A stretch of DNA of 64,000 nucleotides from Ceratodon purpureus (taxonomy: Eukaryota > Streptophyta > Bryopsida > Pseudoditrichales > Ditrichaceae), in the NCBI GenBank assembly GCA_014871385.1, contig CM026423.1:1401128-1465127 (forward strand), given 5' to 3'. A model generated the notes under the pieces. That model saw only the letters and a list, made by a program, of their open reading frames with translations. It searched no databases and was not told the origin of the DNA. Of this stretch, positions 13,964 through 64,000 are shown piece after piece (position 1 is the stretch's first letter; each line of letters begins with the position of its first letter). The position numbers were made by a program, and so were the translations under genes.

Positions 13964-14137
13964 AACTCATATCCAAAATTGACATCGTAGAAATTTGCTT
14001 AAAACTTTAAAAAGCCTTATGTAGGACTATGTCCAATTAGGGATTAATTCAACTCATATCCAAAATTGACATCGTAGAAATTTGCTTAAAACTTTAAAAA
14101 GCCTTATGTAGGACTATGTCCAATTAGGGATTAATTC
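13964..14137. repeat. 87-bp perfect tandem duplication
   Basis: Two head-to-tail copies of an 87-bp unit (starts AACTCATATCCAAAATTGAC, ends TTAGGGATTAATTC) with no difference seen, so a recent slippage or unequal exchange event. Confidence 0.9.
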
Positions 14138-15422
14138 ACATCAGTCTGCTTGAAAGACCGACGTTTGTCTTCTTCTTATTAAGTTGCTATGAAGCCTTTT
14201 GTATACATTGATATTTTGTTTGAATTTTCTTCTTTCTTAATTTCTATTTATTTTAAACTTTTAAACCTTTAAATTCAATTGTTCTTTTGTTCAATCTTTA
14301 GGCTCTGGATGAATGAAGACTGCTTGTCTATGGATTATTAAATTTCAGGTTTCCTTTTTAAGTTGTTTGATTTTGGTTGGTGTTGTAGACTTTGGGATTT
14401 TGATTTATGGTAGTGGTGTAATTAGGATTGATGGTTAATCTGACTTGTACTTTTTTAAATTAAGAATCTTGTTGCTAAATCAGTGTAAACAAGCACACAA
14501 GAGGACTTGAACACAAAGATTGCCAAGAGTTTGTGATGTGTTTTTCTTGTTTTGTGGCAATGTACTCAGAGGCAAGGCCTTAGTGGCTGTAGGAATAGAG
14601 AAATTTCAGTTTCCAAAGGAATCCAACGAGAATAAAGTGTATGTTTGTCCACCTCCAATCCTATGCCCACGAGACAAAAGAATGAAAGTAATGAACTACT
14701 TTCTTCTTTTAAAAGTAAACACTATAGCCACAAGTAACCAATTACAAGATAGACCGGCATACTTAGTATAAGTTATGTTTTGTTAGTAGGTTTGGCCGCC
14801 AAGTCATGAGCTCATAGTTATAACAATGAGCTAGTTTTGGTGGGAGTGAGCATTATCTCATATAACTAGATGGGTTTAAATCCCGCTTGACTCATATGGA
14901 AAAATGTGAGAAATGTGGTCACTTTGCATTAATTGCTGAGTTAGCAATTGCGTACAGGAAAGGAGTTGTATCAACCAACAGCCCATTACATGCATACAAG
15001 AGACATTACACCCATGGCAAACATTCCATAAAGTAGCTTTAGCTATTAAATTTTTATGTTTTAATTAAGGGAGATCTTGTATGTGAGGCAAAAGTTGGTG
15101 ATTTTCTAGTCTTCCTTTGAGGAGTAGGATAATGATGGCATATTGTATGACGATGGTGTTAATGTTTTTAAATGCATATCATATACTAATTGATATTGGT
15201 ATTTTAAAGTTGTTTTTAAATAGCTTCCTTGAGGGGATGTGTGCAGCGGCTCAAGCGTCTGATGTGAGAATAATAAGAGAGTTAATTTTCCTGCCTCTAG
15301 CAGCAATAGTATCAATTAGTGGTTGGTAAATGTTAGTTTTGGCTTCAAGTGCTTTAGATGAGGATTTATAGTTACAATATATGTGAATTTAAAAAAAATT
15401 ATGGTGAGATTTTGATGGATGT
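14138..15422. other. Intergenic, no supported gene
   Basis: AT-rich. A weak tRNA-like B-box (GGGTTTAAATCCC) occurs near 14873, but no tRNA or clear SINE structure could be drawn around it. Confidence 0.45.
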
Positions 15423-24750: not shown

Positions 24751-24788
24751 TTTAATAACAAACATGGTTTTTGCATAGTATGAATGCC

Positions 24789-25005
24789 GAGGGAAGCTTG
24801 TACGTGAGCGGAGAGCGCAGAGCGGAGAGCGGTGAGCGCAGATTTGGAGAGCGGAGAGCACAGAATGGGGGATAGAACCTTAAAATAGCACTTTTTTTAC
24901 TAAAAATAAATTATAAAATTAGAAGATTCGAATATTCTTAGTGTATTTTTGGAAAGTTACTAATTTTAGTAATTTATTTGACCCTATAACCGTGGACTAA
25001 TTACA
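24789..25005 (+). repeat. Left terminal inverted repeat of the large MULE
   Basis: Begins directly after the target duplication at 24779-24788. The outer 85 bases hold repeated GAGCGGAGAGCG motifs and match the right end well. An inner block GACCCTATAACCGTGGA near 24980-24996 also has a counterpart near 40300-40315, with a less conserved AT-rich stretch between. Confidence 0.85.
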
Positions 25006-25769
25006 GTATTTTCATTGAATTTGTAGTTCATATTCTCTTTTCTTGGTGATTAATTTTTTAACGTGCACCAATTACTATGCTCCAGCTCCTTCTAACTAGT
25101 TCAGGCATACAGTAATTCCCCTTATCTCCTTACATTAATATGCAAATTATTACTTAAAATGTATTGGTATTGAACCTCTGAACAGGGATCAAGTAACATT
25201 TGTTTTCGTAACATTTTCTTAACATTGCTAGAATTCATCCACCATAGTCTACATGCCTTTCTCCTTTTTTTTATTTTTTATTATTTTTTTTGAAATTTGT
25301 CTTGTATTTTTTATAAAATTTGTCTTTATTCTATCTATCTTGTTAGAGGGGTCAAAGGCCTCCTTTCATTTAATTCTCTCCTTCATTTTATTTTCACAAT
25401 CATTTTATTTTCACATTCAATTTGTTGATCTCCTTCATATTATTTTCAACCTTCATTTTAAATATTGCTATTCTTTTCTTTAATCTTTTTAATTTCAATT
25501 TATATAAATGTTATTTTTTAATTTTTTTTTTTTTTTTTTTTCATTCTTTAATTTTTAAAAAAAACTTTAAATGCTAAATGACCTCTGCTAAACCTTCATC
25601 TTTTTCCATTCGGTTTAGGAGGATGACAACTTTTAAATGAATGAATAGCCGATTTTCAAGGGCGCCAAGCATCTTCTTCAGGGATATTTAAGATAAGAGT
25701 AGGGAATGTCTCTGCCTCTTTTGTGTTGGTGTTATGTGAAGCTCTTTTCCGTAGTGCGGGACAGCAGCT

Positions 25770-26222
25770 ATGGAAGACGTCAGAGATATTGTTGTTTCAC
25801 TTGCTGACGATGCTTGTCCATTTCAACCTTATGTTGAGGTGGAGGACGAAGAAGAGGTGATGGCCAACAGCCAAGGGCGTCCTTCGACAGCGGATGTTGA
25901 CGTACAACCGGATGTAAGAGCTGACCCTCCACGTTCAGAAAATTCGGATGAAATCATAGTGCTAGAGAAGGAGGCAGATGTGCCTTTGCAACCACATGCA
26001 TACTCGAAGGTTGGAAAGATCCCAAGGGGAACCTATTCCTGGGAATCAGTTAATCGGAGGCGGGGAGGTGGGCCATTGCTGAAACGTTCATACCAAGGAC
26101 ACGCTCTAAGTGTGGGAACGAAATTGAATGCGAATGTAGTTTGTCCTGTAGTACAGTCAGCGGCTGCCATTCCTGCTGATAGTGTAGTGGGCAACCCTGA
26201 ACGTGTTAGGTTCGAAGATTAG
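25770..26222 (+). CDS. Small acidic hypothetical protein of the MULE
   Basis: A 150-residue uninterrupted frame with a true ATG (GCAGCTATGGAAG) lies between the left terminal repeat and the transposase 3' end, which it faces convergently. The N-terminal 75 residues are acidic (VEVEDEEEV, NSDEIIVLEKEAD) and probably disordered. The centre has a Tyr-Ser-Trp-Glu motif (GTYSWESVNRRRGGG) and a basic stretch. AATAAA at 26253-26258, about 30 bases after the stop, could be the poly(A) signal. I recognise no family. Position suggests an accessory protein of the element. Confidence 0.5.
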   Translation: MEDVRDIVVSLADDACPFQPYVEVEDEEEVMANSQGRPSTADVDVQPDVRADPPRSENSDEIIVLEKEADVPLQPHAYSKVGKIPRGTYSWESVNRRRGGGPLLKRSYQGHALSVGTKLNANVVCPVVQSAAAIPADSVVGNPERVRFED

Positions 26223-26476
26223 GACATCTAATAACAAGTATATGTTTGCCTTAATAAAGGGTACATGTCAGGGGATACGAGGTATATAGTGCACTTCTTC
26301 AAGATGGAATGTATTGAAATAGAATGCAATCAATGTGAACGACAAAGCCTTTAATATAATGAAAAAGTCAATACAGCTTCTCAATAGCTGACTTAGTATA
26401 TGGTATATTACTAAAATCATTCACTACGTGACAAATGGCCATCGTGGAAATGGCAGTTCTAAAGTAGGAGGGCTAC

Positions 26477-29018
26477 CTACTTCTTCGCCAAGGGGTGACG
26501 CAAGATTCCATTCTTTAAGAGTAGCTTGACCTCGTTGAAGCTGAAGGTAGGCGCATGGATGAAAAGCTCCGCTTCGGGATCACGGTTGCAGACCTTCAAG
26601 AGTATGTAGTATAGGTGCTTACAATACGTGAATTGAGTCTTGCCACGGAACGTAGTCATTGTCTTCTTGAATGCTGGGCAAGTGCAACCAGGGTAAGAAC
26701 TGATGGTAATCTGGTACCGTGTGATGTGTGGAGGGACGCCCGAATCCAGCCCAATGATGCAACCGTGGCCCGGCTCAGGTATCATGGTGACGGAACGGAG
26801 GCGCGCTTTAAGAGATTCGGAGGAGCCCATGGAGAGTCGCTGCGCTTGATTGGGACGAGTGGCAGTGCGCTTCACCATCTTGCCGTCTCTCTTGCCTGGG
26901 TAGCGGTCAGCGTCTGCAGGGACTGGCACTGAGCTGAGATTTGCAGGAGGCGGGGCAGAAGAGAACAGGCGTCTTGGGGAGACCGGTTTCTTCGGCGGAA
27001 GTTGAAAGCCCGCTGCTTCGAGGGCAAGAATTTCAGTAAGTTTTAGGTTAGTACCTAGTTTCACTGGCCACACCTTTGGAATGGAGGGGAATTCCTGGTC
27101 CTTTGAGTAGTGTGCTACCCACTTGCGCTTAGAGCCTTTCACGCAACGCTCAATATCGTCGAAGCAGAAGAAGAAGTCTGTCTTCTCAACTGTGTTCCTG
27201 CGGTAGTTAGTCCAGAGCCCAGTGTAGGTCGGTGCAGCTATGCAATGGGGCCCCCTGACGATTCTCTCAGTGCACTTCTTCTTCGTTTCAGCTCTTTGGG
27301 CCCAGTAGCACTTTGCAGAAAATTTGTGAAGTCTCGAAATGTGCCACTCCTTCACGTCCACCTTGGTTTCTTCAACCGCGTTGACATGGCGAATGCCGCC
27401 CTTGGTCACAGGTGAAGGTAAAGGAGAATCAACCTTCTGGGCAGGAGGTTGCGTACATTGTACCTCGGTGTCGTGTTCGGAGTCATCTTCCACAATGACG
27501 GGCATCTGCATAGGGCGAGCCCTGACGGCACGTCTTGGGCCTCTTGGGCGTGAGAAGTTTGTCTTATCCGGGCGATGAGACTCCTCGTCAGCTCCGATAA
27601 GGACGTCGGCTTTTTGCTTCTGTGAACCGAAGACTTCCGCTCCAGGCATGATAGGCTGACGGGTGCAGAACTCATCCGCGCCTGGCATATCGAGCATGGG
27701 CTTGTCGAGCAGTGTAGGATTTCCCCATTTCTTCGCGTTGCGTTCAGCCATCCAAAGCCTGAGTTCCTTCTTGGATGGTCCTATTCCGCCGACGTCACCT
27801 TTGAGGAACTGGTAGTAGTTGACAACCTGTAGAAAAGCCCGAACGAAATCGTCCACGGTAGCAACGTAGAGGTCGTTCCCGTTGTTTCCTGAAGCTTGGA
27901 GCCACTTGTTGTGAATTGTTTCGGCGAGGTCACAGGTAGGCATCTCTGTGAGTTCTTCTTTCGTGAATTTCTGCAGGTTTGACAGTAGGTGCCGTTAGAT
28001 TCACCGATTACAGTTTTGTAGGTTAGGGCTAGGTAACGAGTATGAAAAACATCAGAACAGAGTGCAGAGATCATACCTCGGTCATGAATCCCCCCCACTG
28101 CCGGAAGCGGTGGTGCCAGAATGACAGCCACTGATCGAGTTTGATGAGTCCGCTCTCGCCAACGACCCCGGTGGATGCCCACCATGCTCGCAACGCGTGG
28201 TACAGAGTTTCCGCCTCTGCCATGCTCGTCGCATTCTTGTACTGAGTGCACATCTTCTTGTGATGTTCCCAGAGTTTTTCGGGGAAGTGCTTCTGCGTAT
28301 ACGCCACCATGTTCTGAGTCCAGTGGAACAAGCACGACCTCTCCCGGTCCTCCATTGGGTCCACTTTGTTGCCATTGCCGTAAAGGATTCGGACTGCATT
28401 CCAATTCGTCTGTGCGTTATCCGCCATGAACCCCTTGAAGTTCAGCGCTGCAACGCCATTGATCTCCATGACCAGGTTCAGGTTTTTCCAGAAGACGAGC
28501 TGGGCGTCCGTATCCTCGGACTGCATGTCGCAAGTGGCGATTGTCATCACGCGGCAGTAGGTGGCGTCGTACACATGGCACGCCATCGCCGACCAATCTT
28601 TGACGCGTTTTACATGGTCGAACATGATCCATGCGTTCTCCAAATCGCCACCAGCTTGCATACGGCTGTCCAAGTCGACACCACTTCCCGGCCCGACCTC
28701 CGACATCTTGAAGACAAAGACTTTGTCACGCATCGATCCCTGACCAGGAAACCTATTCTCCTGGACATACGCCCAGAGACTGTTACCACGGAGCTTGGTG
28801 ATACCGTCCATGATTCCGTACCTTTTGAATTTTTTGAAGGTGGCGACCTTGTTGCGGATGTTGGGCGACGCCATGTCTTTGCATCGATCCAGAACAGGAA
28901 CCAGCTCCTCCATCGTCAGCTTCCTCGGTGGTGCATCCTCGGGCTGTAGAAGGTAGCTCCCGATGAGGAGTTTGCTCGCCTCCAAGACAACGGCGCTCTT
29001 TGTTGCTTTGTTGTTCAT
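26477..29018 (-). CDS. MULE transposase, catalytic core and SWIM zinc finger (two exons)
   Basis: Exon 29018-28077 joins exon 27970-26477 across a 106-base GT-AG intron (GTATGA...CTGCAG) in phase 0, giving 811 residues. The core shows WSAMACHVYDATY, which supplies the first Asp. FKGFMADNAQTNWNAV supplies the second, and CLFHWTQNM is the C-x-x-H block typical of MULE transposases. The final acidic residue may be in EAETLYHALRAWW. After the intron, ETIHNKWLQASGNNGNDLYV leads into a linker. A SWIM finger follows: CTCPAF near 26695 and YCKHLYYILL near 26618, pattern C-x-C-x(n)-C-x-H. Product would bind the terminal repeats and move the element. Upstream sequence 30250-29015 is its N-terminal part in another frame. 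Confidence 0.85.
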
Positions 29019-30250
29019 TCTACCTGCTCTTCTATTAAGCTACTAATCTCTGCTTTAGAGTCTCTGTAGTCTCCTACTTTCACTGGATGATCATGTGTTC
29101 CTATGTGAATACACGCTCTAGTCTGATTCGGTTTGCCCACAACGTAATAAATCTTAGCCTCGCATGTAGCTACACATGATGGAGGTTCTTTACATACCTT
29201 GCAGACTAGCGTGGAGTCAGATGGAGGAGGCTGGTTCATGACAAAAGCTTGCAGGGTACAGCCTTCGAACTCAGTCTCGTTAACCTCGAAGATCTTGGGA
29301 ACACGCTTCAGGAAGTCACACTCCTTGTTGCTGCAGCGGAGCCATCCGACGCAGGTGGAACTTCGAAAAGAGAGTCCGAAGTCGTTTTTGATGTTTGTTG
29401 TGATGGTCTTGGTCCACAAGTGTCCGTCGTATCGTTTGTCCATTCCCTGCATTGACTTGGCGGCGAGCTTAGAGGAACCTGCAGCAGCTGGGGGCAACTC
29501 AAAAAGAACCGGACCATCAAACTTCGCAGGCAAGTACTCTACTCTCTCGTGTCTCATAGTGGAATAGTCTATCTTCTTCAAAATGTTTTTGGACCCACGC
29601 GTCTTAGCAATCTCTTTAAGGAGCGGAACAATGCTAACTGTGACCTGGGACAATGGAGGAGACACATTGGAAGGAGGAGCATCTGCGTGGACCTTAGGCA
29701 CCAACTTGACGGGACTGACTTCGTCATCAGAAGAGAGAGATATGACGGTCGGAGGAGGTTTCTCTACATCTGAAGTCTCGGTACCAGGCTCGACTTTGAC
29801 CTTGACATCACGAGGTAAGTGAGTCTGAATTGTGCAAGTAGAAGAGCGACGGGGGGTGAGGATCTCAGTGGATGCAGCCATAAGAGAATCAGTAAGACCA
29901 TAGACTCTATTGGATCCAGGGAGGAGTCTCCACTGCAACATGTTGTTCTCATCTCTCACTGAAGGTTGCCCGAGGGTGTGGGTAACCTCGGCAGTAACGT
30001 CATCATACATCTCCTCCTCTATACTGATGGAATCCTCTCAAAAATGAAATCTGAGACTGAGGCGAAGAGAGGACACCGTAGCTAGACCATCGTCATCTAC
30101 GCGAAACCTAAGAGGGATGCCGATGCCTTGGGCGTACAGACAGACCATCCCCATATTCGCAGGAAACTCAGAGATACTAAAGGAAGACGAGAGAAAGGGA
30201 GTGTACCAGCGCAGCAGTATCGCGAGAGCAATGTGAGAGGAATGATGCAT
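29015..30250 (-). pseudogene. MULE transposase N-terminal part with GCM-like zinc finger, interrupted
   Basis: The frame starts at ATG 30250 (MHHSSHIALAILLRWYTP). It meets an in-frame TGA at 30040-30038 and resumes as EDSISIEEEMYDDVTAEV to 29015. A Ser/Pro/acidic linker is followed by a Cys/His-rich module: GWLRCSNKECDF, CKVCKEPPSCVATCEAKIYY and TRACIHIGTHDHPV. This resembles the WRKY-GCM1/FLYWCH-type fingers at the start of MULE transposases and probably binds the terminal repeats. At its 3' end the stop overlaps the ATG of the catalytic frame (ATGA). In an intact gene the two frames are expected to be one, so a one-base indel near 29018-29033 is likely. GCAG/GTAGAA here could instead be a splice donor. 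Confidence 0.7.
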
Positions 30251-30754
30251 CGCTGTTGATCATTTTATTCTAGTTGGAATGTCCATGTGGACCACTAGGT
30301 AATGATTCATTCTGTTAAGTAATGAATGATTGATTAAAGAGAGACGGCGCTAACTAATTAGAGTGTTGCTTTTTGCAGGCCCAAGTTAACAGGGTAGGAG
30401 TTATTAGAACTACTTATTTATTATATGAATCGTGGAACCGATTCTATTCGATGTGCAGTTTGGTGAGATTAGAATGAGCCGTCAATTGCATCCATATTTA
30501 ATACAAGTATTCCAGTGCTTAATTCAAATCTTTTAAAAATTTGTGGGCTTGGTTTATTCTCTTCCAATATAGATTGATCTCATCAGCTTTAATTCAAAAT
30601 GCAATTATATATAGTTTTCATTAATTTAAGTAGGTTTCGAATATGGTTAGTACTTAGGGTTGAGTCGGGGGGGTGAAGGTCTGGGATATATAAGTTAGAG
30701 GGAAGTGAGCGGGAGAGCTATATTGTGAGGAGAGTTCTCTCGTTAGTTAGACAT
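30251..30754. promoter_or_regulatory. Divergent promoter spacer between transposase and methyltransferase genes
   Basis: About 500 AT-rich bases separate two divergent start codons. On the plus strand GGATATATAAGTTAG near 30685-30699 supplies a TATA box about 60 bases before the ATG at 30755. No equally clear TATA box was placed for the minus-strand gene. Shared control of the two genes is inferred from this arrangement. Confidence 0.55.
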
Positions 30755-33700
30755 ATGAAGGAGAGTGGAGGGTCAGGTCCCTCCACTTATGTCACTCCTA
30801 GGCCGAGAAGAAAACCAGGTGGTATAGATTTTACTAACAGGAGATCGAGGAAGAGGAGAGAATTACGTAGGAAGTCAAAGTCGAAAGGCAACCTCTTGAG
30901 TGCACCACTGAAGGTTCGAGGAGCTGGGCTGCCAGTGGCAATTAAATTTTGTAGCATCCGTAAACTCATTCTAGAGTCCATAGTAGAGGTGGAAGATGAG
31001 GTTTTAGAGGATACCGCAGTTGAGCATGAGGAGCATGAGATAATAAGTAGCGGAGAGAAACATCTGGAGATGACGGAAGAGCTAGGGTTCAATTGCAGTC
31101 CGACTTTGGAGACACCGCAACCTTCTTTCGGATTCAAGGAGTGTTCAACAAGAGGGACGGATTCTCAGTCAGGCGACCATGCTAATACGGATGTGGTAAG
31201 TTCCATAATCCATAAATTTAAAAATGCTAAATGTAAATTATGTATTTTTGTAGAGTTATATTTGGTTAGAAGTAATGTCTTTGCTGCGGGTTCGTTGTTT
31301 TACTGTTTAGAATAGTGAAGCTGCATTAAACTGAATGGTTGTTCAAAATAAAAGTGGAGTAGTAATTCTCGTCTTAGTCCTAAACATTTGCGCAGACTGG
31401 CGACTGCTTTAGAATTGAGCAAGATGTTTTAGAGAAAAAGACGCCAGAGGTGGATACGGGCGAGGAGTCAGATCATGAGACGTTGAGAAAAGTCGCTAGG
31501 AGAGCGAGACGCCAAATTATGGAGGCGGGCGAAGGTGGGGAAATAGTTGCTGCTACACGAGCGGGGCGAGGGCACCCTGGAAGTCCTACTGAAACTAATG
31601 GGGAGGATGTTGATTCGCTCGACATTGCGGTAGGTCCTGGTCCAGAAGAGGACATGGATGAGCGGTCGTCCCGAGGGAGATGTCGAAAGTCGGAGGTGAG
31701 GGGTCGAGGGAGGGGTAAGGGTCGAGGTGGAAGAGGGAAGGCTTCTTTACAAGCCCCATCAAAACAAGCACCCGCGGCCACGGTAGAGCACGGGACAGGT
31801 AAGGAGATGGCGGACCGAGGAGATGAGCATGGAGAGGACCGTCTGGAGGACGTCACTGCGAGTCAGGACAATAGGTCGGACCGCGGCCCTGCCACCGAGG
31901 AGGTGAGGATTGAAGTTTGGCTTTTGTGTTTTTCAGATTTGTGGGTGTTTGGATTTGTTGGGGTTGTGTTTGTGGGTCATGAGTGAGAGACGAATTCGGG
32001 CGTGAGTCTTTTACGAAATTGAGAGAGGGCAATGGGGGCACATTCGGTGCGGAAAGTGGGTGTTTGGGAGGGAGATGGTGGGGGGGGGGGAGGCCATGGC
32101 AATGTCACTGTGGAAGCTGCAGTGAGTGAGGCCGCGAAGGCATGGGGGGCAATGGGGGCACATTCGGTGCGGAAAGTGGGTGTTGGGGAGGGAGATGGTG
32201 GGGGGGGAGGCCGCGGCAATGTCACTGTGGAAGCTGCAGTGAGTGAGGCCGCGAAGGCATGGGGGGCAATGGGGGCACATTCGGTGCCGAAAGTCGGTGT
32301 TGGGGAGGGAAATTGTGGGCGGGGAGGCCGCAGGAATGTCACTGTGGAAGCTGCAGTGAGTGAGGCCGCGAAGGCATGGACGGAGAAGAGGGCACATTCG
32401 GTGCCGAAAGTGGGTGTTTGGGAGGGAGATGGTGGGGGGGGGAGGCCATGGCAATGTCACTGTGGAAGCTGCAGTGAGTGAGGCCGCAAAAGCATGGGGG
32501 GCAATGGGGGCACATTCGGTGCGGAAAGTGGGTGTTGGGGAGGGAGATGGTGGGGGGGGAGGCCGCGGCAATGTCAGTGTGGAAGCTGCAGTGAGTGAGG
32601 CCGCGAAGGCATGGACGGAGAAGAGGGCACATTCGGTGCCGAAAGTGGGTGTTGGGGAGGGAGATGGTGGGGGGGGGGGAGGCCGCGGGAATATCACTGT
32701 GGAAGCTGCAGTGAGTGAGGCCGCGAAGGCATGGACGGAGAAGAGGGCACATTCGGTGCGGAAAGTGGGTGTTGGGGAGGGAGATGGTGGGGGGGGAGGC
32801 CGCGGCAATGTCAGTGTGGAAGCTGCAGTGAGTGAGGCCGCGAAGGCATGGGGGGCAGTGGGGGCACATTCGGTGCGGAAAGTGGGTGTTGGGGAGGGAG
32901 ATGGTGGGGGGGGGGAGGCCGCGGCAATGTCACTGTGGAAGCTGCAGTGAGTGAGGCCGCGAAGGCATGGGGGGCAATGGGGGCACATTCGGTGCGGAAA
33001 GTGTGTGTTGGGGAGGGAGATGGTGGGGGGGGAGGCCGCGGGAATGTCACTGTGGAAGCTGCAGTGAGTGAGGCCGCGAAGGCATGGACGGAGAAGAGGG
33101 CACATTCGGTGCCGAAAGTGGGTGTTGGGGAGGGAGATGGTGGGGGGGGGGGGAGGCCGCGGGAATATCACTGTGGAAGCTGCAGTGAGTGAGGCCGCGA
33201 AGGCATGGATGGAGAAGAGAGCACATTCGGAACCGAAAGTGGGTGTTGAAGAGAGAGATGGTGGGGGGGGAGGCCGCGGCAATGTCAGTGTGGAAGCTGC
33301 AGTGAGTGAGGCCGCGAAGGCATGGGGGGCAATGGGGGCACATTCGGTGCGGAAAGTGGGTGTTGGGGAGGGAGATGGTGGGGAGGGGAGGCCGCGGGAA
33401 TGTCACTGTGGAAGCTGCAGTGAGTGAGGCCGCAAAAGCATGGGGGGCAATGGGGGCACATTCGGTGCGGAAAGTGGGTGTTGGGGAGGGAGATGGTGGG
33501 GGGGGAGGCCGCGGCAATGTCACTGTGGAAGCTGCAGTGAGTGAAGCCGCAAAAGCATGGGGGGCAATGGGGGCACATTCGGTGCGGAAAGTGGGTGTTG
33601 GGGAGGGAGATGGTGGGGGGGGAGGCCGCGGCAATGTCACTGTGGAAGCTGCAGTGAGTGAAGCCGCGAAGGCATGGGGGGCAATGGGGGCACATTCGAT

Positions 33701-36700
33701 GCCGAAAGTGGGTGTTGGGGAGGGAGATGGTGGGGGGGGGGGGAGGCCGCGGGAATGTCACTGTGGAAGCTGCAGTGAGTGAGGCCGCGAAAGCATGGGG
33801 GGCAATGGGGGCACATTCGGTGCCGAAAGTGGGTGTTGGGGAGGGATATGGTGGGAAGGAGGCCATGGCAATGTCACTGTGGAAGCTGCAGTGAGTGAGG
33901 CCGCGAAGGCATGGGGGGCAATGGGGGCACATTCGGTGCTGAAAGTGGGTGTTGGGGAGGGAGATGGTGGGGGGGGGCCGGACCAAGGTCAAGGTGGAAG
34001 CCCTTGCTTTATTGTTTTTTACTATATTTTTTCGATTCATTTAACGTTTTTACTCTTTGTATTGTAGGAGTTCAGTGATCAACTCACTGCGACTGAAGGT
34101 GATGGTCCAAGTCGTGTCGAGACTGAGGTAACTTAATCTTATTTTTTTTTTTATTGAAATTTGCATTTTCTATTAATCTTTCTTAAGTAGTTTTGTAAAG
34201 TAAAATGGTTAATTGACATTGTCTTTGTTCCTATTGTTGTAGGTATTCTTAGATGCACCCTTGTCCATCAGTTCGCCGATCTCAGTGATCAATGTTTCCG
34301 ACCTCTCGGATTCATTTGATCAGCCCCATTTATGTAGGTGTGATTTAGGAAACCCTGTAGGTTTAGGCAGTGGACCTGTCGAGGTCCACTCCCCGCAGTA
34401 CATGCCTACGTCTCCTGTCTATGAGCCTACATCTCCGGGCTTCATACCTACTTCTCCTCGAGTTGGTACCCCGCCGATGTCTCCGCCTTCTCCTTCTTCA
34501 CCTATTAGAGTGAGGAGGCCAGCCCATGTTGTCTTCGCCCTTCCGGCGATACTGCCTTGCCCTGTCCAGTAGACCAGGCGTTTTTGGATGAGGCGCCGTC
34601 ATTGGAACTGTAGACAGGCTAGGGAGTACTATAGCCGTGCTCCACGTACATAGTGGCCCCTGTACTTCTTCCTACTGTGCCTTAGGAATTGCTATTCAAA
34701 CGAGATGTATCAGTACAGGAAGCTATTGTTCAACCTATCTTCATAATTGTTTGATTTCCTTTGATCCTCATCATGTATGACTTATGGCAGGTAACCTAGA
34801 CACAGGATACGTTGCCAGCGCCCTCTTTTCCTAGTGAATTGACGACTGTAGTTGACAGTGAATTGGGACATCGGGTACAACACAAGCAAGACTCCAATGG
34901 CGTCATCAACAAGCTCCGAATTCATCCAACGTCAAAGTCACGTATCCTAGTTCTCCTTTGCAGAATGCTCTCTATGGCAAAAGTGCGACCTGTGGGAGAA
35001 ATGGGAGTTCAACATTTGGAGCGAGAGTTTGTCAAAGGCTACAGAGATGGAGACAGAGTCATGTACATTTCCATGTACAACCACGAAGAGAAGACAGCGG
35101 ATGTCACTGAGGAGACCAAGGCTGAGTGGAGCCCTTGTTGGCAAAAAGCGAATGATGCTTTCGAGGACGAGCTCTTGGCCGACTTGGATTTGAAGGAGTT
35201 TTTTGGGAAGATGTTCTTCGTCTGGGAAGGTAACCATCGCCTCGCTGCCTGGTACAGACATATCAACAACCATCACAGCGAAGATCCAGCGTAGCACATC
35301 TCTGTGCATTGCATTGTTCTTGACCCACGTGGTCATGTGGGAAACCTTCTTCATGCCATGCACGACATCAATTGGTGAGAATTTGAACCCTTTATTTTGA
35401 TCACACCTCTTGCGCGCTGCTTGAACTCGTATTTCTTGCATTTTACTAACTACCGTCTTTTCGTACAGATCTACAGAAAATGATCATGTGAAGAGTAATC
35501 TTCCGGCTAAACTTTTTAGGATTCGGTCCTTCGGTGTGATGAAATTGGAGGAATTCAAGGATCTCCTCACAGCAGAGGAGTATCAATTGTCTCTGAATCA
35601 CAAACCATCTAATCCATCCTGGTTTACCTTGCCAACCAAAGTCTTCATCGCGTTTCTTTATCGTGTAAGCACTTGATCCATCCTTTCTCACACTTCCATT
35701 CGACAATTGATTTTACTGTTTACTAAAAAGGGGCACAACTATGTTTTTTTAGAGAGAAATCGTGGCGGCCTCAGACGAAGCTGCGAGAATCTACAAGGAG
35801 AAAACAGCCATTGAAGACCAAACCGCAGGAGGTGTTTGGGATGCCATGACTGCGGCTTCAAACAACATGGTCGAAGCCATTAAGAAGAAGGACTTCACCA
35901 AGTACTTGACAATTGCAAATCCCAAGAACGGTGACGACTTCCTTAATGAGGTGATACCCTTACCGTGGTTGACTTAATTATATCTTTTCACTTCTTTAAT
36001 TTTGTATTCACGTTTCCTCAATCAACTCTACTTGTTGGAGATTAATCGGCATTACAGTGAGAACAATAAACCTGAGATGTCACTCGATAAGCTTCAGAAG
36101 GTTGTTCCAGCGGCGGTTGAGGCCAAGTACAAGGCTCGTTGGTTGAGGTGGTGGAACTCATCTCCGACTTCCCGAAAGTCTTACAGATTTCCGCCAGCAG
36201 AATTCAAAGACACCGATTTCGACCCTTGGTTGAACAAAGCTTCATTCTGGGCCGGGGTAAGTTTCATTCATGAAGCGTTCTTCATTCATGACTTGAACCT
36301 TTCTTCTGTCCCTCATTTCTTTCTTACTACTACTGACATATATTCTGTATATTAGTTGGAGGAAGCCGTCATCAACGAAGTCGAGGGCCTATGCAAGGCG
36401 GATAACCTCGTTATCAATTGGAAGGCATTTCCTGATGTACAAGAGCCGGGCGACTTTGTCGAGAGTTCCCGTATTCTATTATGGGACAAGGCCTTCCCTA
36501 CGTTCGTTGGAAAGAATGCTGAGAAGGTGTTCGACAAGAAGTCCAACTTCGCTAAATTCCCTGGAACCGCAGAGGTTGTCAAGCGGGTTACTTACGGGTA
36601 AGTTACTTCCCTTAATCATATTCAAATTCCATAATGAGCTCTACATATCTTTCTCATACTAACCTTCTCCATATTGGTTTCCTTAGGTACTTTAAGCGAG

Positions 36701-38762
36701 AGCTTGTTCTGAAGGGGGCACTTAAAGTTCAGCAAGTGCCTAACTTCTTTAGTCCTTGGACTTCAAGAACCTCGGACCAGTGTATGTACTCTCCCCGACA
36801 GCTCAAAAGGTACAAAAACCCTCACTTGCTTGAGGGATGCTGGTATCTTGATTGCTCTCGTGGTTTCACGATTGACTCAGAGGCGGACGTCAAGACTCTA
36901 CACGATGGGGGTGAGGTTGTGGTGGAGGACTCCGTCGATGATGCAGAATGTCCTGAAGGAGAGCAGGATCAGTCTTCTGCTCCACCACCGAAGAGAGGGA
37001 GAGGAAGGCGACTGAAATCTCTGCGTTCGCAGTCGGAGGCCTCACAGCAAACTGGTGCGGAGTCTTCCGCGCCAACTGAGAAGGCACCGGAGCCCTCTCC
37101 GGTTATTGTCATTACAAACCCATGTCCAGCTTCTTCGCCGGCTCCTTCCTCGATCAGTGCTTCCGATGTCACCAGAGGGCTCCTCGAGCAGAGGAAGGCC
37201 AAACTATATCCTCAACCAACTTCTTCCGCTGGAGCTTCGATTTCCACACATGTTTCTGTTTTCAACTCATCTGTGGATTCCATGTTGCGGCGAAATAAGA
37301 GACAAGAGAGAAAAGGTGGCGACCCGGACTGGATCAAGACTCAAGGCTTCATTCGCAAGGTATGTTCCGATATTTTGACATTTAATGGATTCTGCCACCT
37401 CTACTCGCTACATAGTTACTAACTCTCCTTTCTTGTTTCCTCAAGTTTGGAGCAGGCCGCGAAAACAGAGTTCCGGACCGGTGCAAACAAGAGGACCATC
37501 TGGGAGTCGACTTGATCATTGCCGACATCCCTGAGAATCTTCCCGTCCCTTCCGTTTCCGTTCCTCCCACGAGTATTCCGCCTTGGAACTCTCGCGAGAA
37601 GGATTATGTGTACGACATCTTCCATTTTGCAGATAAATACCTGCAGAAAGATGGTGCCATCTGCCTCATCTACAACACTGATCAGAAGCTGGCTAAGGAT
37701 ATCGAGGAAGAAGCTGCTGGTGGTGACTACGTGCTTTTCAAGGACTGGTGGGGTGTCAATGTACTCGGCCTGACTTCTCCAACGAACCCCGAGAACTTGG
37801 TACTTTTCCTAAACATACCCTTCTCTTTGCTTACTTATAACCCTTCCGCTTAATTTTACTCACTAGTTTTGCTTGACTGCAGACTATGCGGTTCTGGATT
37901 CGCGTCTACGTTCGTAATGGCAGTACTTTCTCCTTCCAGACGAAGAAGGAAGACCTGATACATGGGCTCCTCAACATTACCGAGAGTGATGCCATTTTCA
38001 ACTTCACCGATGTGGATTCGCAGCTCATGAATGAGGAGGTGCCGTGGAGAGGCCCAAGGGAGAAATCCCCTGAGATGATGCAGGGCATACTTGAGGAGCT
38101 GTCAAAGCCCGGCGACATAGTTCTTGATTGGAATGCTGGGACAGGTAACTATTCATGCATATCTTTGCTGAATTATTCCTCTCGTTTTTACCACAGTTTC
38201 TCATTTCTTTGTATCTCTCCAAGTTTCAGGAGCCTCCATCAAGGCTGCCCAGGCTATTGGTCGCCACATTCTCGCTTTTGAGGAGGACGAAGCCATATTC
38301 AACGCCCTTCTCAAACCATCCGCCATGGGCCCTCCTAAACATCCTAGGCCGGCAGCAGCAGGCGAAGCGCCTCCAAAGAGACCAAGACCTGATAAGTGGT
38401 GTAAGTCTTCTATTCTTTGTTCAAATTATCCAAGCGTTACTTCTCTTTGCAGCTCTACGTACTCGATGTAACCACAGTCGGTTCTCTATTGCAGAGTAGT
38501 TTCAGCAACACCGCCACGTGGGCCAACATCAGTGTCCACTCCATCGTGGCGTCTTCATTCCAGCCCGATTCAGCCTTTCATACTTCCGGACTACGCAGAG
38601 GACTTAGCACAGGCGTTTCAATCTGGAGCCCTTACATATGTTCCTAGTCGGCCAACTACTTTTGATCCCAGGGCCCTTCTATTCGTCGATGACGAGGCGG
38701 TAGAAGGAGATTCAGAGTCATCTAGTTCTGAGAGTGAAAGTAGCGACTGTAGCATGTTGTGA
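30755..38762 (+). CDS. ParB-like / N4-N6 amino-methyltransferase-like fusion protein (14 exons), transposon-borne
   Basis: Predicted exons: 30755-31195, 31396-31902, 34068-34127, 34243-34509, 34806-35374, 35469-35664, 35753-35950, 36041-36256, 36356-36597, 36687-37359, 37446-37799, 37883-38144, 38230-38400, 38506-38762. They sum to 4413 bases (1470 codons plus stop), all GT-AG with matching phases. The N-terminus is Arg/Lys- and RG-rich. Residues 389-409 are three Pol II CTD-like heptads (YMPTSPV, YEPTSPG, FIPTSPR). Residues about 485-600 look ParB/sulfiredoxin-like, with FVWEGNHRLAAW as the core. The C-terminal region resembles beta-class DNA methylases. A motif IV position (DLIIADIPE, 1145-1153) precedes motif I (VLDWNAGTG, ending 1329) and IGRHILAFEED. 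Motif IV has ADIPE instead of D/S-PP-Y/W, so activity is doubtful. TAG at 35292-35294 replaces an expected Trp, and the 35374/35469 junction gives TGA. The gene is probably inactive in this copy. Confidence 0.7.
32031..33985 (+). repeat. 118-bp minisatellite, about 17 units, each with a G-quadruplex motif
   Basis: The core CACATTCGGTGCGGAAAGTG occurs 17 times at 116-121 base spacing. Units run through GGGTGTTGGGGAGGGAGATG, a run of 6-10 G, GGCCGCGGCAATGTCACTG, then GAAGCTGCAGTGAGTGAGGC. Each unit fits G3+N1-7 G-quadruplex spacing, with loops TGTT, A and AGATGGT. Unit length varies mainly in the long G run, so the plus-strand frame (GAHSVRKVGVGEGDGGGGG..., about 39 residues) drifts. Long minus-strand frames here are shadows of the repeat. 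The array lies in the predicted 2.2-kb intron 2 of the methyltransferase gene. Each unit contains GTGAGT and CTGCAG, so cryptic splice sites recur. Confidence 0.9.
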
Positions 38763-39276
38763 GTTTGAAGTAGGCTTCGGTCTATTGTTGTTTTCATTTG
38801 ATTTGATTTGATTAAATTGGAGTTCATTGGGTAATCCTTCGTCTACTCTACTACCCTAAACCTAAACTTGTTATGATTCTCATTTCCAATTCGTCTCCTT
38901 CTATGTAAAGGATGAAATGTCACAACTGTAATGCTCAAAATATAATATGAAGAATGAAATGTTACAAAAGAAAGGCTCAAAAATAATATTGTGCTGTTAT
39001 TTATATTTTACTCATTCAAAATCCCACATTTGCATAGCCATGTTACCTATTCTTGACTTGGTGTACATCTTGGTTTCTGCTACTCCATTATTGTACACAA
39101 ACTCTGAAATATTCCACAAACTTTTAAGACCATTTCTTTTAATTGGTTTCGAGTTGCCTTATTCCTAGAATCGTCTTTATTATCTAAAACCATCATGCTG
39201 TAATACTCGTATCTAGATCCAATAAGGGACCAAATCTAAAGGAATGTATTCGAACACCCCACTAGACTTCACAGTA
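38763..39276. other. Spacer after methyltransferase gene
   Basis: AT-rich 3' flank between two convergent genes. It probably contains both 3' untranslated regions. No further gene seen. Confidence 0.5.
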
Positions 39277-39648
39277 CTAATCCTTCGAAGGATATACAGT
39301 CCAACTCTTGTCCATATCAAACCAACAAGTTTTGCCATCCGATATGATCACTTCGGGCAGCTGAACAACTGGATTCTCATCGACGTTCGAAAGCAAGGGA
39401 TACGGGATTAGGGACAACTCCATAATACGGAGAAGCTCATTGGTACAAAGCATTGTCCAACGCCATTCACCTTCACCAACATGGAGGCTTCCGATGTGCC
39501 TAAACGGTGGCAGGTCCATGCCTCGTTCCCTGGCGCGCTCCACCTCCAGCAGCCACGGCCGCAGCTCCTCATAACTCGCCGGTGCCTTTGGGGGCAAACC
39601 TACAGCCGCTCTCGTCCTCCTGGATCTTGCATTACACACCTTCGGCAT
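39277..39648 (-). CDS. Hypothetical protein of the MULE
   Basis: The frame is open from 39876, but the best start is ATG 39648 (MPKVCNARSRRTRAAVGLPP), giving 123 residues. The N-terminus is basic. It continues with SYEELRPWLLEVERARERGM and ends with ISDGKTCWFDMDKSWTVYP. The protein is well mixed and Trp-rich, with no low complexity. It lies between the methyltransferase 3' end and the right terminal repeat, convergent with the methyltransferase gene. I recognise no family. It mirrors the small ORF at the left end and may be an accessory factor. Confidence 0.5.
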   Translation of the reverse strand: MPKVCNARSRRTRAAVGLPPKAPASYEELRPWLLEVERARERGMDLPPFRHIGSLHVGEGEWRWTMLCTNELLRIMELSLIPYPLLSNVDENPVVQLPEVIISDGKTCWFDMDKSWTVYPSKD

Positions 39649-39876
39649 CGCGCAACACACTGAATTCTTGTAGTCTTCAAACGTTACACTCAAGCTTGCA
39701 GATTGACATCCCCGAACTCCTACGCTACCTTCGCATACAGCACAGCATGCCAAGGACTGTGTCACTATCCAAATACGCCACCTAGAGACAAGCTCAAGAA
39801 ACCAAGAGTGACCTCCTTCTCTGGAACCCAGCTTACCAAGTGTTGTTTCATGATGAAAATCTCCTACTTGTATCAC

Positions 39877-40289
39877 TCAAATGAAGATGCTTTGCTGCCT
39901 AGGAAGAGAGAGTAATCTTCGATGAAGACAAAGACTCTAACAAGGTATATTTTGGTTTCAGCAGTTAAGATATTATACACGAATTTTGAAATATTCCAGG
40001 AAGTTTTCAAACCTTGCCCGCTTTACGTTCTTTCAAATTTGTTTTTTCCCTTGTGCATTTACATAATCCTATGAAAGAATTATTTGTTTGATCTAAAACT
40101 CAACGCCTGATCATTGTATCTTGCCTAAATCCATGACAAATCTAAAGGAATGTATGCATGACGTCATCATGACATCAGCCCTAATTTGTATCATTGAGAA
40201 CAAACGTAATAAATTCTTACCAGAGATAATCCTAATTTCCACGGTAATATACTCTTTTTCTAAAAAAAGTGTCAAAATTAAGCCTTAAT
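39877..40289. other. Subterminal spacer of the MULE
   Basis: AT-rich, no open frame of note, between the last ORF and the right terminal repeat. Confidence 0.5.
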
Positions 40290-40418
40290 TTAGTAATTTT
40301 CCACGGTTATAGGGTCTACTTTGCTTTTGAAAATTTTCCTAATTGTCAATTCTGTGCTCTCCATTCTGCGCTCACCGCTCTCCGCTCTACGCTCTCCGCT
40401 CACGTACGAACTTTCCCC
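40290..40418 (-). repeat. Right terminal inverted repeat of the large MULE
   Basis: In reverse complement it reads GGGGAAAGTTCGTACGTGAG, then GAGCGG/AGAGC motifs and GAGAGCACAGAAT, matching the left end. The inner block GACCCTATAACCGTGGA is shared. It is followed directly by the target duplication TATGAATGCC at 40419-40428. Confidence 0.85.
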
Positions 40419-40428
40419 TATGAATGCC

Positions 40429-63496: not shown

Positions 63497-64000
63497 GGGT
63501 GACATAGGAAACGTTCAACTGTGTTACTAAAAACATATTAACAGATCCTACGTGGAATGCCCAGCTGACTTGGAACGAAGGCGTGGAGGATACGGCTGAC
63601 GTAGAACGTAGGGTTCGGATCCTAGAGGGTATCAATGGTGACGCCTGCGTTCTGGGTGACATAAAAACGCGTCACACTGTGTTTCAAGAAACATATTGAC
63701 ATAGCTGACGCATCCCCTATGCGTGTAAGCTAGAGCTGACGTGGAGACTAGGTTATGACATGGTCTACATCCTAGGGGGTGTCAATAGTGACGTGCGCGT
63801 TTTGGGTGACATAAAAACGCGTCACACTGCGTTTCAAGAAACATATTGACATAGTTGACGTATTACATGTGCATGGAGGCCGTGACTGACGTGGCGGCTA
63901 TGGTTTGACTTGGTCAACATCCTAGGGGGTGTCAATAGTGACACACATGTTTAAAGAGACATAAATTGCGTTAAATTGTGTTTCAAGAAACGTAATCACA
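63497..64000. repeat. Tandem array of about 150-bp units, running off the window
   Basis: GGGTGACATA begins units at about 63497, 63654 and 63804, with a partial fourth from about 63950. Units share GTTTCAAGAAACATATTGACATA (quoted in part: GTTTCAAGAAACATATTGAC), CTGACGTGG and CCTAGGGGGTGTCAATAGTG. The last full units are most alike. TGACG-type motifs recur several times per unit. The right boundary is outside the window. Confidence 0.85.

Follow-up and report, generated by a model that had tools for sequence, protein, structure and literature searches.

A probable Mutator-like transposon family of the moss Ceratodon purpureus with a ParB-like/methyltransferase-like gene and divergent tandem arrays that keep one near-palindromic word

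Introduction

In the VANDAL elements of Arabidopsis, which are Mutator-like elements (MULEs), a conserved transposase is accompanied by the fast-evolving second gene VANC and by divergent target-like tandem repeats (PMC5735166; PMC10398659), and the repeats that VANC targets differ between related transposable elements (PMC5735166). In Shigella, VirB, a ParB-family anti-silencer, has a palindromic parS-like binding site and shows spreading (PMC10653881). In Ectocarpus, the 21.5-kb transposon Sola1-1_Ec32 carries a gene with ParB and 4mC/6mA (N4-methylcytosine/N6-methyladenine) methyltransferase parts, for which self-modification was proposed and green and red algal relatives were cited (PMC12477816). 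These papers, and PMC6446971 below, are represented here by excerpts of their text. We describe a mobile element at positions 24789-40418 of a 64,000-nucleotide stretch of the Ceratodon purpureus genome, here called the window (C3:1401128-1465127 in the moss's own assembly). As its preliminary description had it, the element comprises a minus-strand transposase, a long spliced plus-strand gene, here referred to as the cargo, and two small open reading frames (ORFs).

Like VANDAL/VANC, the moss family is probably of the MULE type, combines a fast-evolving second gene with a conserved transposase, and has tandem repeats, also intronic, that contain a short recurrent word and are not the same from one related copy to the next. 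Unlike the VANDALs, which are described as lacking terminal inverted repeats (PMC6446971), the moss element has clear ones. Its word is a 16-bp near-palindrome, its anti-silencing role is proposed from sequence, and its cargo protein is unrelated to VANC in the profiles scanned, with no Pfam match to DUF1985 or DUF287 in the scanned cargo pieces (exons 31396-31902, 34068-34572 and 38495-38762 left out). The model proposed below resembles VirB in pairing a ParB-type protein with a palindromic site and in loading and spreading to relieve silencing. However, VirB is a bacterial plasmid regulator acting against H-NS, the excerpt of PMC10653881 mentions no methyltransferase fold for it, and the likeness is one of design, not of demonstrated homology. 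Sola1-1_Ec32 and the moss element are both giant DNA transposons with one accessory gene that has ParB-like (in the moss by motif only) and amino-methyltransferase parts and runs opposite to the transposase. The Ectocarpus element differs in its transposase superfamily, in an enzyme presumed able to modify DNA, and in that the excerpt of PMC12477816 describes no copy-specific arrays with a common word.

Our favoured explanation, for which we hold belief and doubt to be evenly balanced, is that the family carries a self-recognition module, made up of the cargo and of candidate binding sites arrayed in tandem within this gene or next to it. By analogy with the described systems, such self-recognition would probably serve anti-silencing. 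A moss MULE with such a cargo was not described in the open PMC full texts searched, as far as the portions retrieved go; subscription papers fall outside that scope. As far as this literature reaches, the ParB-like/methyltransferase pair in a land-plant Mutator-like element, the catalytic motif replaced across the aligned family and the arrays sharing one near-palindrome are new.

Results

Ends, copies and past transposition

24779-24788, no strand: left 10-bp target-site duplication TATGAATGCC (exact-repeat search)
24789-24866, plus strand: left terminal inverted repeat with GAGCGGA-type 7-mers (repeat search, gapped alignment, genome match)
40349-40418, minus strand: right terminal inverted repeat (repeat search, gapped alignment; same right end in seven of ten fetched copies)
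40419-40428, no strand: right 10-bp target-site duplication TATGAATGCC (exact-repeat search)

The matching terminal inverted repeats and the perfect 10-bp duplication that had been reported for this element were both recovered. The repeats (24791-24842 and 40365-40416) are 92% complementary over 52 nt, and a gapped alignment of both ends scored 99 against a maximum of 30 among 200 shuffles. TATGAATGCC flanks the element exactly and occurs exactly twice in the window, at the two positions given above (2 of 100 shuffles also gave two occurrences). It is confirmed that 24789-40418 is a real mobile element and that its coordinates are exact.

The preliminary description had suggested a search with the ends for other copies and empty sites. 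The left 82 bp of the element were found with 100% identity at all 40 places scored in the moss's own genome, window included (1299 candidates, 40 scored), and the left flanks of these places were distinct in 39 cases, the single matching pair being a local duplication. We fetched ten copies, the first in the list, which are a non-random sample picked by the identical left end. Seven of them have a common right end and span 12.6-18.7 kb; among the other three, one contains 9.5 kb of N, one gives way to other sequence 0.3 kb short of the right end, and one has no end inside 20 kb. An exact 10-bp duplication, each one different, flanks six of the seven two-ended copies, and the seventh has its left flank in common with its neighbour. 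One copy is nested and reveals its empty site: its flanks, joined with one duplication removed, align without gaps to the uninterrupted element in nine of the ten other elements (window included), the tenth having a deletion there. The family has transposed in the past and was apparently active recently.

Other copies with 10-bp duplications have transposase and cargo linked within these same ends, so that the claim of one mobile unit containing both holds. The further expectation that all four genes travel together stands for these two, the small ORFs being weakly supported.

Divergent arrays with a common near-palindrome

32027-33976, no strand: 117-bp tandem array of 16.5 units, with a near-palindrome of the CATTCGGTGCCGAAAG type about once per unit (17 matches, all on the plus strand)

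The window array is situated between predicted cargo exons 2 and 3, and a long tandem array is present upstream of the exon at 34243 in all 11 elements, that is, the window and the ten fetched copies (in C6_12.53 up to its N). At this same place the array units measure 117, 128, 171, 201, 212, 225, 342 or 422 bp. Among the 11 elements, the arrays of C6_11.95 and C6_12.53 alone align over their full length, and one other pair has 55 bp in common.

Word tests were made on ten arrays, with C6_12.53 omitted as a near-duplicate. A recurrent plus-strand 16-bp word is present in all ten and varies from array to array, for example CATTCGGTGCCGAAAG, CATTCTGTGACGAATG and CTGTCGTTGACGACAG. With a leave-one-out weight matrix from which the nearest relatives were excluded, the same word ranked as the top recurrent one in ten of ten arrays (p 0.001-0.025). 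The null consisted of 1000 dinucleotide shuffles of one unit in place of reversed arrays, which are a poor null for common k-mers as reversal mirrors the same words. The full matrix gave 137 matches in the arrays, 136 of them on the plus strand, once or twice per unit (one array has 5 in 7.2 units); its threshold was the lowest training score, so this count is partly by construction. Outside the arrays, these elements gave two more matches, and the 48 kb of window sequence flanking the element gave none. The two are 116 bp apart in C5_6.97 and probably represent a detached piece of its array.

As new data we took 4 kb from each of five further copies, choosing them by position alone. In all five there is an array in which the word recurs about once per unit, giving 65 matches at the same threshold (61 on the plus strand). 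Four of these arrays are of known types (72-98% alike), while that of L062 matches none of the earlier arrays and contains CATTCGGTGACGAATG 23 times. In L066 most words fall under the threshold (4 matches at 17.6, 15 at 14). Among three AT-rich arrays, similarity in the sequence flanking the word is 64-87%, and the word itself is identical in all three apart from one one-mismatch site, the units for this alignment having been chosen by the exact word; by eye, the palindrome there reaches 11-bp arms. The GC content of the arrays ranges from 0.31 to 0.69.

Structure and state of the cargo gene

30755-31195 and 31396-31902, plus strand: first two predicted exons, variable N-terminal region (exon prediction, copy comparison)
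34068-34600, plus strand: predicted exons 34068-34127 and from 34243, 3' border unset (exon prediction, copy comparison)
34791-35374, plus strand: ParB-like exon with VWEGNHRLAAW motif (ORF list, copy comparison)
35469-37359, plus strand: predicted middle exons 35469-35664, 35753-35950, 36041-36256, 36356-36597 and 36687-37359 (exon prediction)
37446-37799, plus strand: exon with presumed, degenerate methyltransferase motif IV IIADIPENLPVP (relatives' alignment)
37883-38400, plus strand: methyltransferase motif I exons 37883-38144 and 38230-38400, DIVLDWNAGTG/ASIKAA, PF01555 match (profile match)
38495-38762, plus strand: predicted last exon, 5' border uncertain (ORF list, copy comparison)

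The exon borders were set by hand from the DNA. The window cargo contains a premature TAG at 34570-34572, which is a sense codon in eight of eight copies compared, and another at 35292-35294, likewise a sense codon in eight of eight other copies aligned. Since both stops are sense codons elsewhere, the cargo is probably one gene. Two further stops hinge on predicted splice sites: a TAG at 34797-34799, which counts only with an exon start at 34791, and a stop at the 35374/35469 junction. A second gene starting at 34800 was also considered and judged unlikely, because all eight sister copies compared have a sense codon at the window's stop.

The cargo was found in nine of the ten fetched copies, the tenth having its 9.5 kb of N at that place. 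The ParB-like exon is stop-free in eight of the nine copies having it, and six of the nine are stop-free from this exon to the last exon tested. The window copy is thus intact at its ends only, with a broken transposase (see below) and a broken cargo that are open in some sisters.

Methyltransferase fold and ParB-like region

The cargo matches PF01555 (N6_N4_Mtase) with 34.9 bits against a cut-off of 26.7, in the motif I half only (profile positions 145-218 of 221), and its best PDB match, also in this half, is CcrM (E 0.004). As in the beta-class N6/N4 amino-methyltransferases such as CcrM and DpnA, the presumed motif IV precedes motif I. The canonical catalytic motif IV reads (D/N/S)PP(Y/F/W). 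Among 62 candidates we obtained 42 relatives of the presumed motif IV exon, and the alignment has 44 rows (window, P0001 and the 42 relatives), of which 42 align at the motif and two do not. None of these 42 rows has an aromatic residue at the fourth place: unlike the DPPY of CcrM and DpnA, the motif is D-x-P-E or similar throughout, with D-I-P-E in 27 rows and D-A-P-E and similar forms in the rest. Motif I is also altered in variants (DWNAGTGAS, DWKAGTGAS, DWSASTGAS). P0001, a Ceratodon cargo relative of 788 amino acids without the ParB-like part, was the only cargo relative in one protein search (best 8000 candidates scored); it has DAPE at motif IV and a changed motif I. Because the presumed motif IV is replaced in all aligned rows, canonical methyl transfer is doubtful. 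A role of the cargo as a writer of DNA methylation seems unlikely, contrary to the epigenome editing first suggested, and the fold probably serves as a scaffold that is non-catalytic or altered.

The VWEGNHRL motif is present in nine of nine ParB-like exons and its GNHRL residues, which we take to resemble a ParB motif, are invariant in all nine. No ParB match was obtained in Pfam, PDB, PHROGs or NCBIfam searches of the cargo. Of the name ParB/amino-methyltransferase-like gene, the second half is therefore backed by a profile match and the first by motif resemblance. No relative of the element appeared in the viral contigs, plasmids or phages scanned; phages gave weak matches only, to the C-terminal part of phage methyltransferases, and one viral contig (L001) matched 75 residues in the methyltransferase C-terminal part.

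Selection and mosaic divergence

The ratio of nonsynonymous to synonymous divergence (dN/dS) was computed from pairs that are non-independent, with stop codons skipped and saturated dS dropped. For the two transposase exons the mean dS is 0.09-0.10 and dN/dS is 0.09 and 0.13 (28 and 36 pairs). In the same copies the ParB-like exon has a mean dS of 1.23 and a dN/dS of 0.12 (45 pairs). Middle cargo exons also show a dN/dS of 0.12, and the methyltransferase exons have a mean dS of 0.35 and a dN/dS of 0.28. These ratios indicate purifying selection on both transposase and cargo.

The number of clusters at 90% identity varies by exon: the transposase and ORF A form one, exons B1a to e6 form 5 to 9, the methyltransferase exons and the last exon form two, and ORF B forms one. 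The centre of the cargo is much more diverged between copies than the transposase and the ends, and it seems to have been exchanged between old lineages within young ends. That the copies were picked by their identical left end makes low divergence on the left more likely; it cannot produce high divergence in the centre.

Self-recognition and alternative explanations

The sequence-specific self-recognition reading is drawn because different units keep one near-palindrome in ten of ten tested and five of five further arrays. In the proposed mechanism, the cargo protein, in which a ParB-like DNA-binding region would be joined to a degenerate amino-methyltransferase fold, would bind the near-palindromic word as a dimer. 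It might load onto the array of its own element and then spread, and the loaded protein could shield the element from silencing or otherwise mark it for the transposase. If lineages exchanged array and recognition region, their specificities would stay separate, in line with what has been proposed for VANC and its targets. The window copy is a broken member that would rely on its sisters. The complete scheme, a eukaryotic ParB-parS-like self-recognition of transposons with a catalytically dead methyltransferase fold, lineage-specific palindromic arrays, spreading that blocks host silencing and cassette exchange that yields element strains of separate specificity, is more tentative, and we would put it somewhat short of an even call. 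The self-protection suggested for this element at the outset fits the VANC-like evolutionary pattern, and it is the self-protection half of that suggestion which survives.

Several points weigh against the self-recognition reading. The copies were chosen by an identical left end, and of the 40 places ten copies and five 4-kb pieces were read. Because the words had first been chosen by eye in these very arrays, the leave-one-out test is not wholly independent. Only six of ten arrays contain the exact 7-mer CATTCGG. Covariation between word and protein is best at exon e4 (r=0.43, p=0.007, uncorrected over 32 tests), with p=0.086 for the ParB exon; r is 0.21-0.43 over the ParB-to-e5 exons and low for the transposase, ORF A and the methyltransferase, and it is not significant after correction. 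On the protein side, none of the nine ParB-like exons matches ParB in Pfam, the assignment resting on the motif. Motif IV was assigned by place and order, as the PF01555 match covers the motif I half alone, and the single alignment pairing DIPE with DPPY is not significant. The word could also be bound by a host factor or act as a seed of repeat formation. In addition, part of the array may code in some copies, since many arrays have a high GC content, long open frames and a period that is a multiple of 3. A plain coding repeat was rejected as the sole explanation, since two AT-rich arrays without frames above 91 amino acids still hold the word.

Alternatively, the array, bound by the cargo, might be an internal enhancer or a bridging site for assembling or targeting the transposase, with no role in silencing. 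The restriction of the word to the ten tested arrays, with near absence outside, and the homogeneity of ends and transposase while the array varies would suit such a helper. Yet array units vary widely where the transposase hardly changes, which is odd for part of a transposition complex, and we regard this explanation as unlikely.

The arrays might also be a mutational by-product, expanding in a relaxed intron with the word left over only as the seed from which the repeats formed. The instability of tandem arrays and the turnover of their units speak for this, as does the variation of the word itself between arrays. Against this, the word is retained in unrelated units and over the whole range of GC content, it is mostly one-stranded (136 of 137 and 61 of 65 matches), and in the three AT-rich arrays it is all but exact within flanks that are much less alike. 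A by-product of this kind is distinctly improbable.

For the cargo as an active writer that methylates its own element (6mA or 4mC) speak the PF01555 match above cut-off and the Ectocarpus precedent, where the same domain pair and opposite orientation go with proposed self-modification (PMC12477816, in excerpt). The lack of an aromatic residue at the presumed motif IV in all aligned rows and the altered motif I make this highly doubtful. Finally, a retention device with a centromere-like ParB-parS function, or other selfish chromosome behaviour, is a very remote prospect: arrays of a 16-bp near-palindrome beside a ParB-like gene resemble plasmid partition sites (PMC10653881), but an integrated transposon has no need of partition and no ParA-type ATPase was matched in the element pieces scanned.

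If the self-recognition reading is true, sequence-specific transposon anti-silencing would have been invented independently in land plants, from prokaryote-type DNA-binding and methyltransferase parts, and its putative target site would already be visible. The role of a ParB-methyltransferase cargo in giant eukaryotic transposons becomes directly testable with open-frame copies, arrays and a defined 16-bp word. Ceratodon purpureus can be grown in the laboratory.

Transposase and Mutator-like membership

28076-30147, minus strand: transposase, N-terminal and catalytic exon, borders by hand (ORF list, relatives' alignment)
26477-27967, minus strand: transposase, C-terminal exon, SWIM-like CxC..CxH (ORF list, relatives' alignment)

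The window transposase has an in-frame TGA at 30038-30040 and a frameshift between 29015 and 29039. We found 142 transposase relatives at E<=1 among 7998 scored candidates, and the closest among the matches listed, 97% identical, is open across both lesions, from which we conclude that the window transposase is broken. Both transposase exons are open end to end in four of ten copies (C6_12.53, C6_11.95, C6_8.75 and C5_6.97).

MULE target-site duplications are about 8-11 bp long, and the duplication here is exactly 10 bp in the window and in six of seven two-ended copies. The SWIM profile was matched by five of 17 C-terminal-exon members (best E 0.008), and D..D and C..HW residues are visible by eye. 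The element is probably Mutator-like, given the 10-bp duplication, the inverted ends, the SWIM-like finger and the D..D/C..HW residues. These features agree with the MULE transposase first proposed; 19 catalytic-exon members gave no match at E<=1 to a MULE Pfam profile (PF10551 being the MULE transposase domain).

In one GTDB scan a transposase relative (43%) was found in L002 (CADCWO010000080.1, 1-4101; 4.1 kb), a contig assigned to an uncultured Synechococcales metagenome-assembled genome. The contig has the transposase only, in two exon-like frames, and is probably eukaryotic contamination of this cyanobacterial assembly. P0055, a transposase relative, and P0158, a relative of the methyltransferase exon, come from the same source and both list a longest contig of 18151 bases, which suggests one common contig.

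Small ORFs and other features

25770-26222, plus strand: small ORF A, 150 amino acids (ORF list, copy comparison)
39277-39876, minus strand: small ORF B, 199 amino acids stop to stop (ORF list, copy comparison)
25365-25460, no strand: 17-bp tandem repeat, about 5 units in the window copy and up to 29 in one other copy

ORF A is open in ten of ten copies with a mean dS of 0.043 and a dN/dS of about 0.87, which leaves its coding status doubtful. ORF B is full-length in six of the ten fetched copies, four of which have a stop in it, and a seventh match belongs to a neighbouring copy; its mean dS is 0.064 and its dN/dS 0.44. Both are weakly supported as genes, and the layout of four equal genes described at first is not sustained.

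At C5 19.61-19.67 Mb there is a cluster of copies, with one nested inside another and a pair with a common left flank. C6 (110 Mb, probably a sex chromosome) contains four of the 40 listed left ends, and one copy there runs into the 9.5 kb of N. By eye, CCCTATAACCGTGG occurs at 24982-24995 and, inverted, at 40301-40314, inside both ends and past the terminal inverted repeats. Outside the element, the window contains a perfect 87-bp tandem duplicate at 13964-14138 and a 150-bp tandem repeat at 63619-63991.

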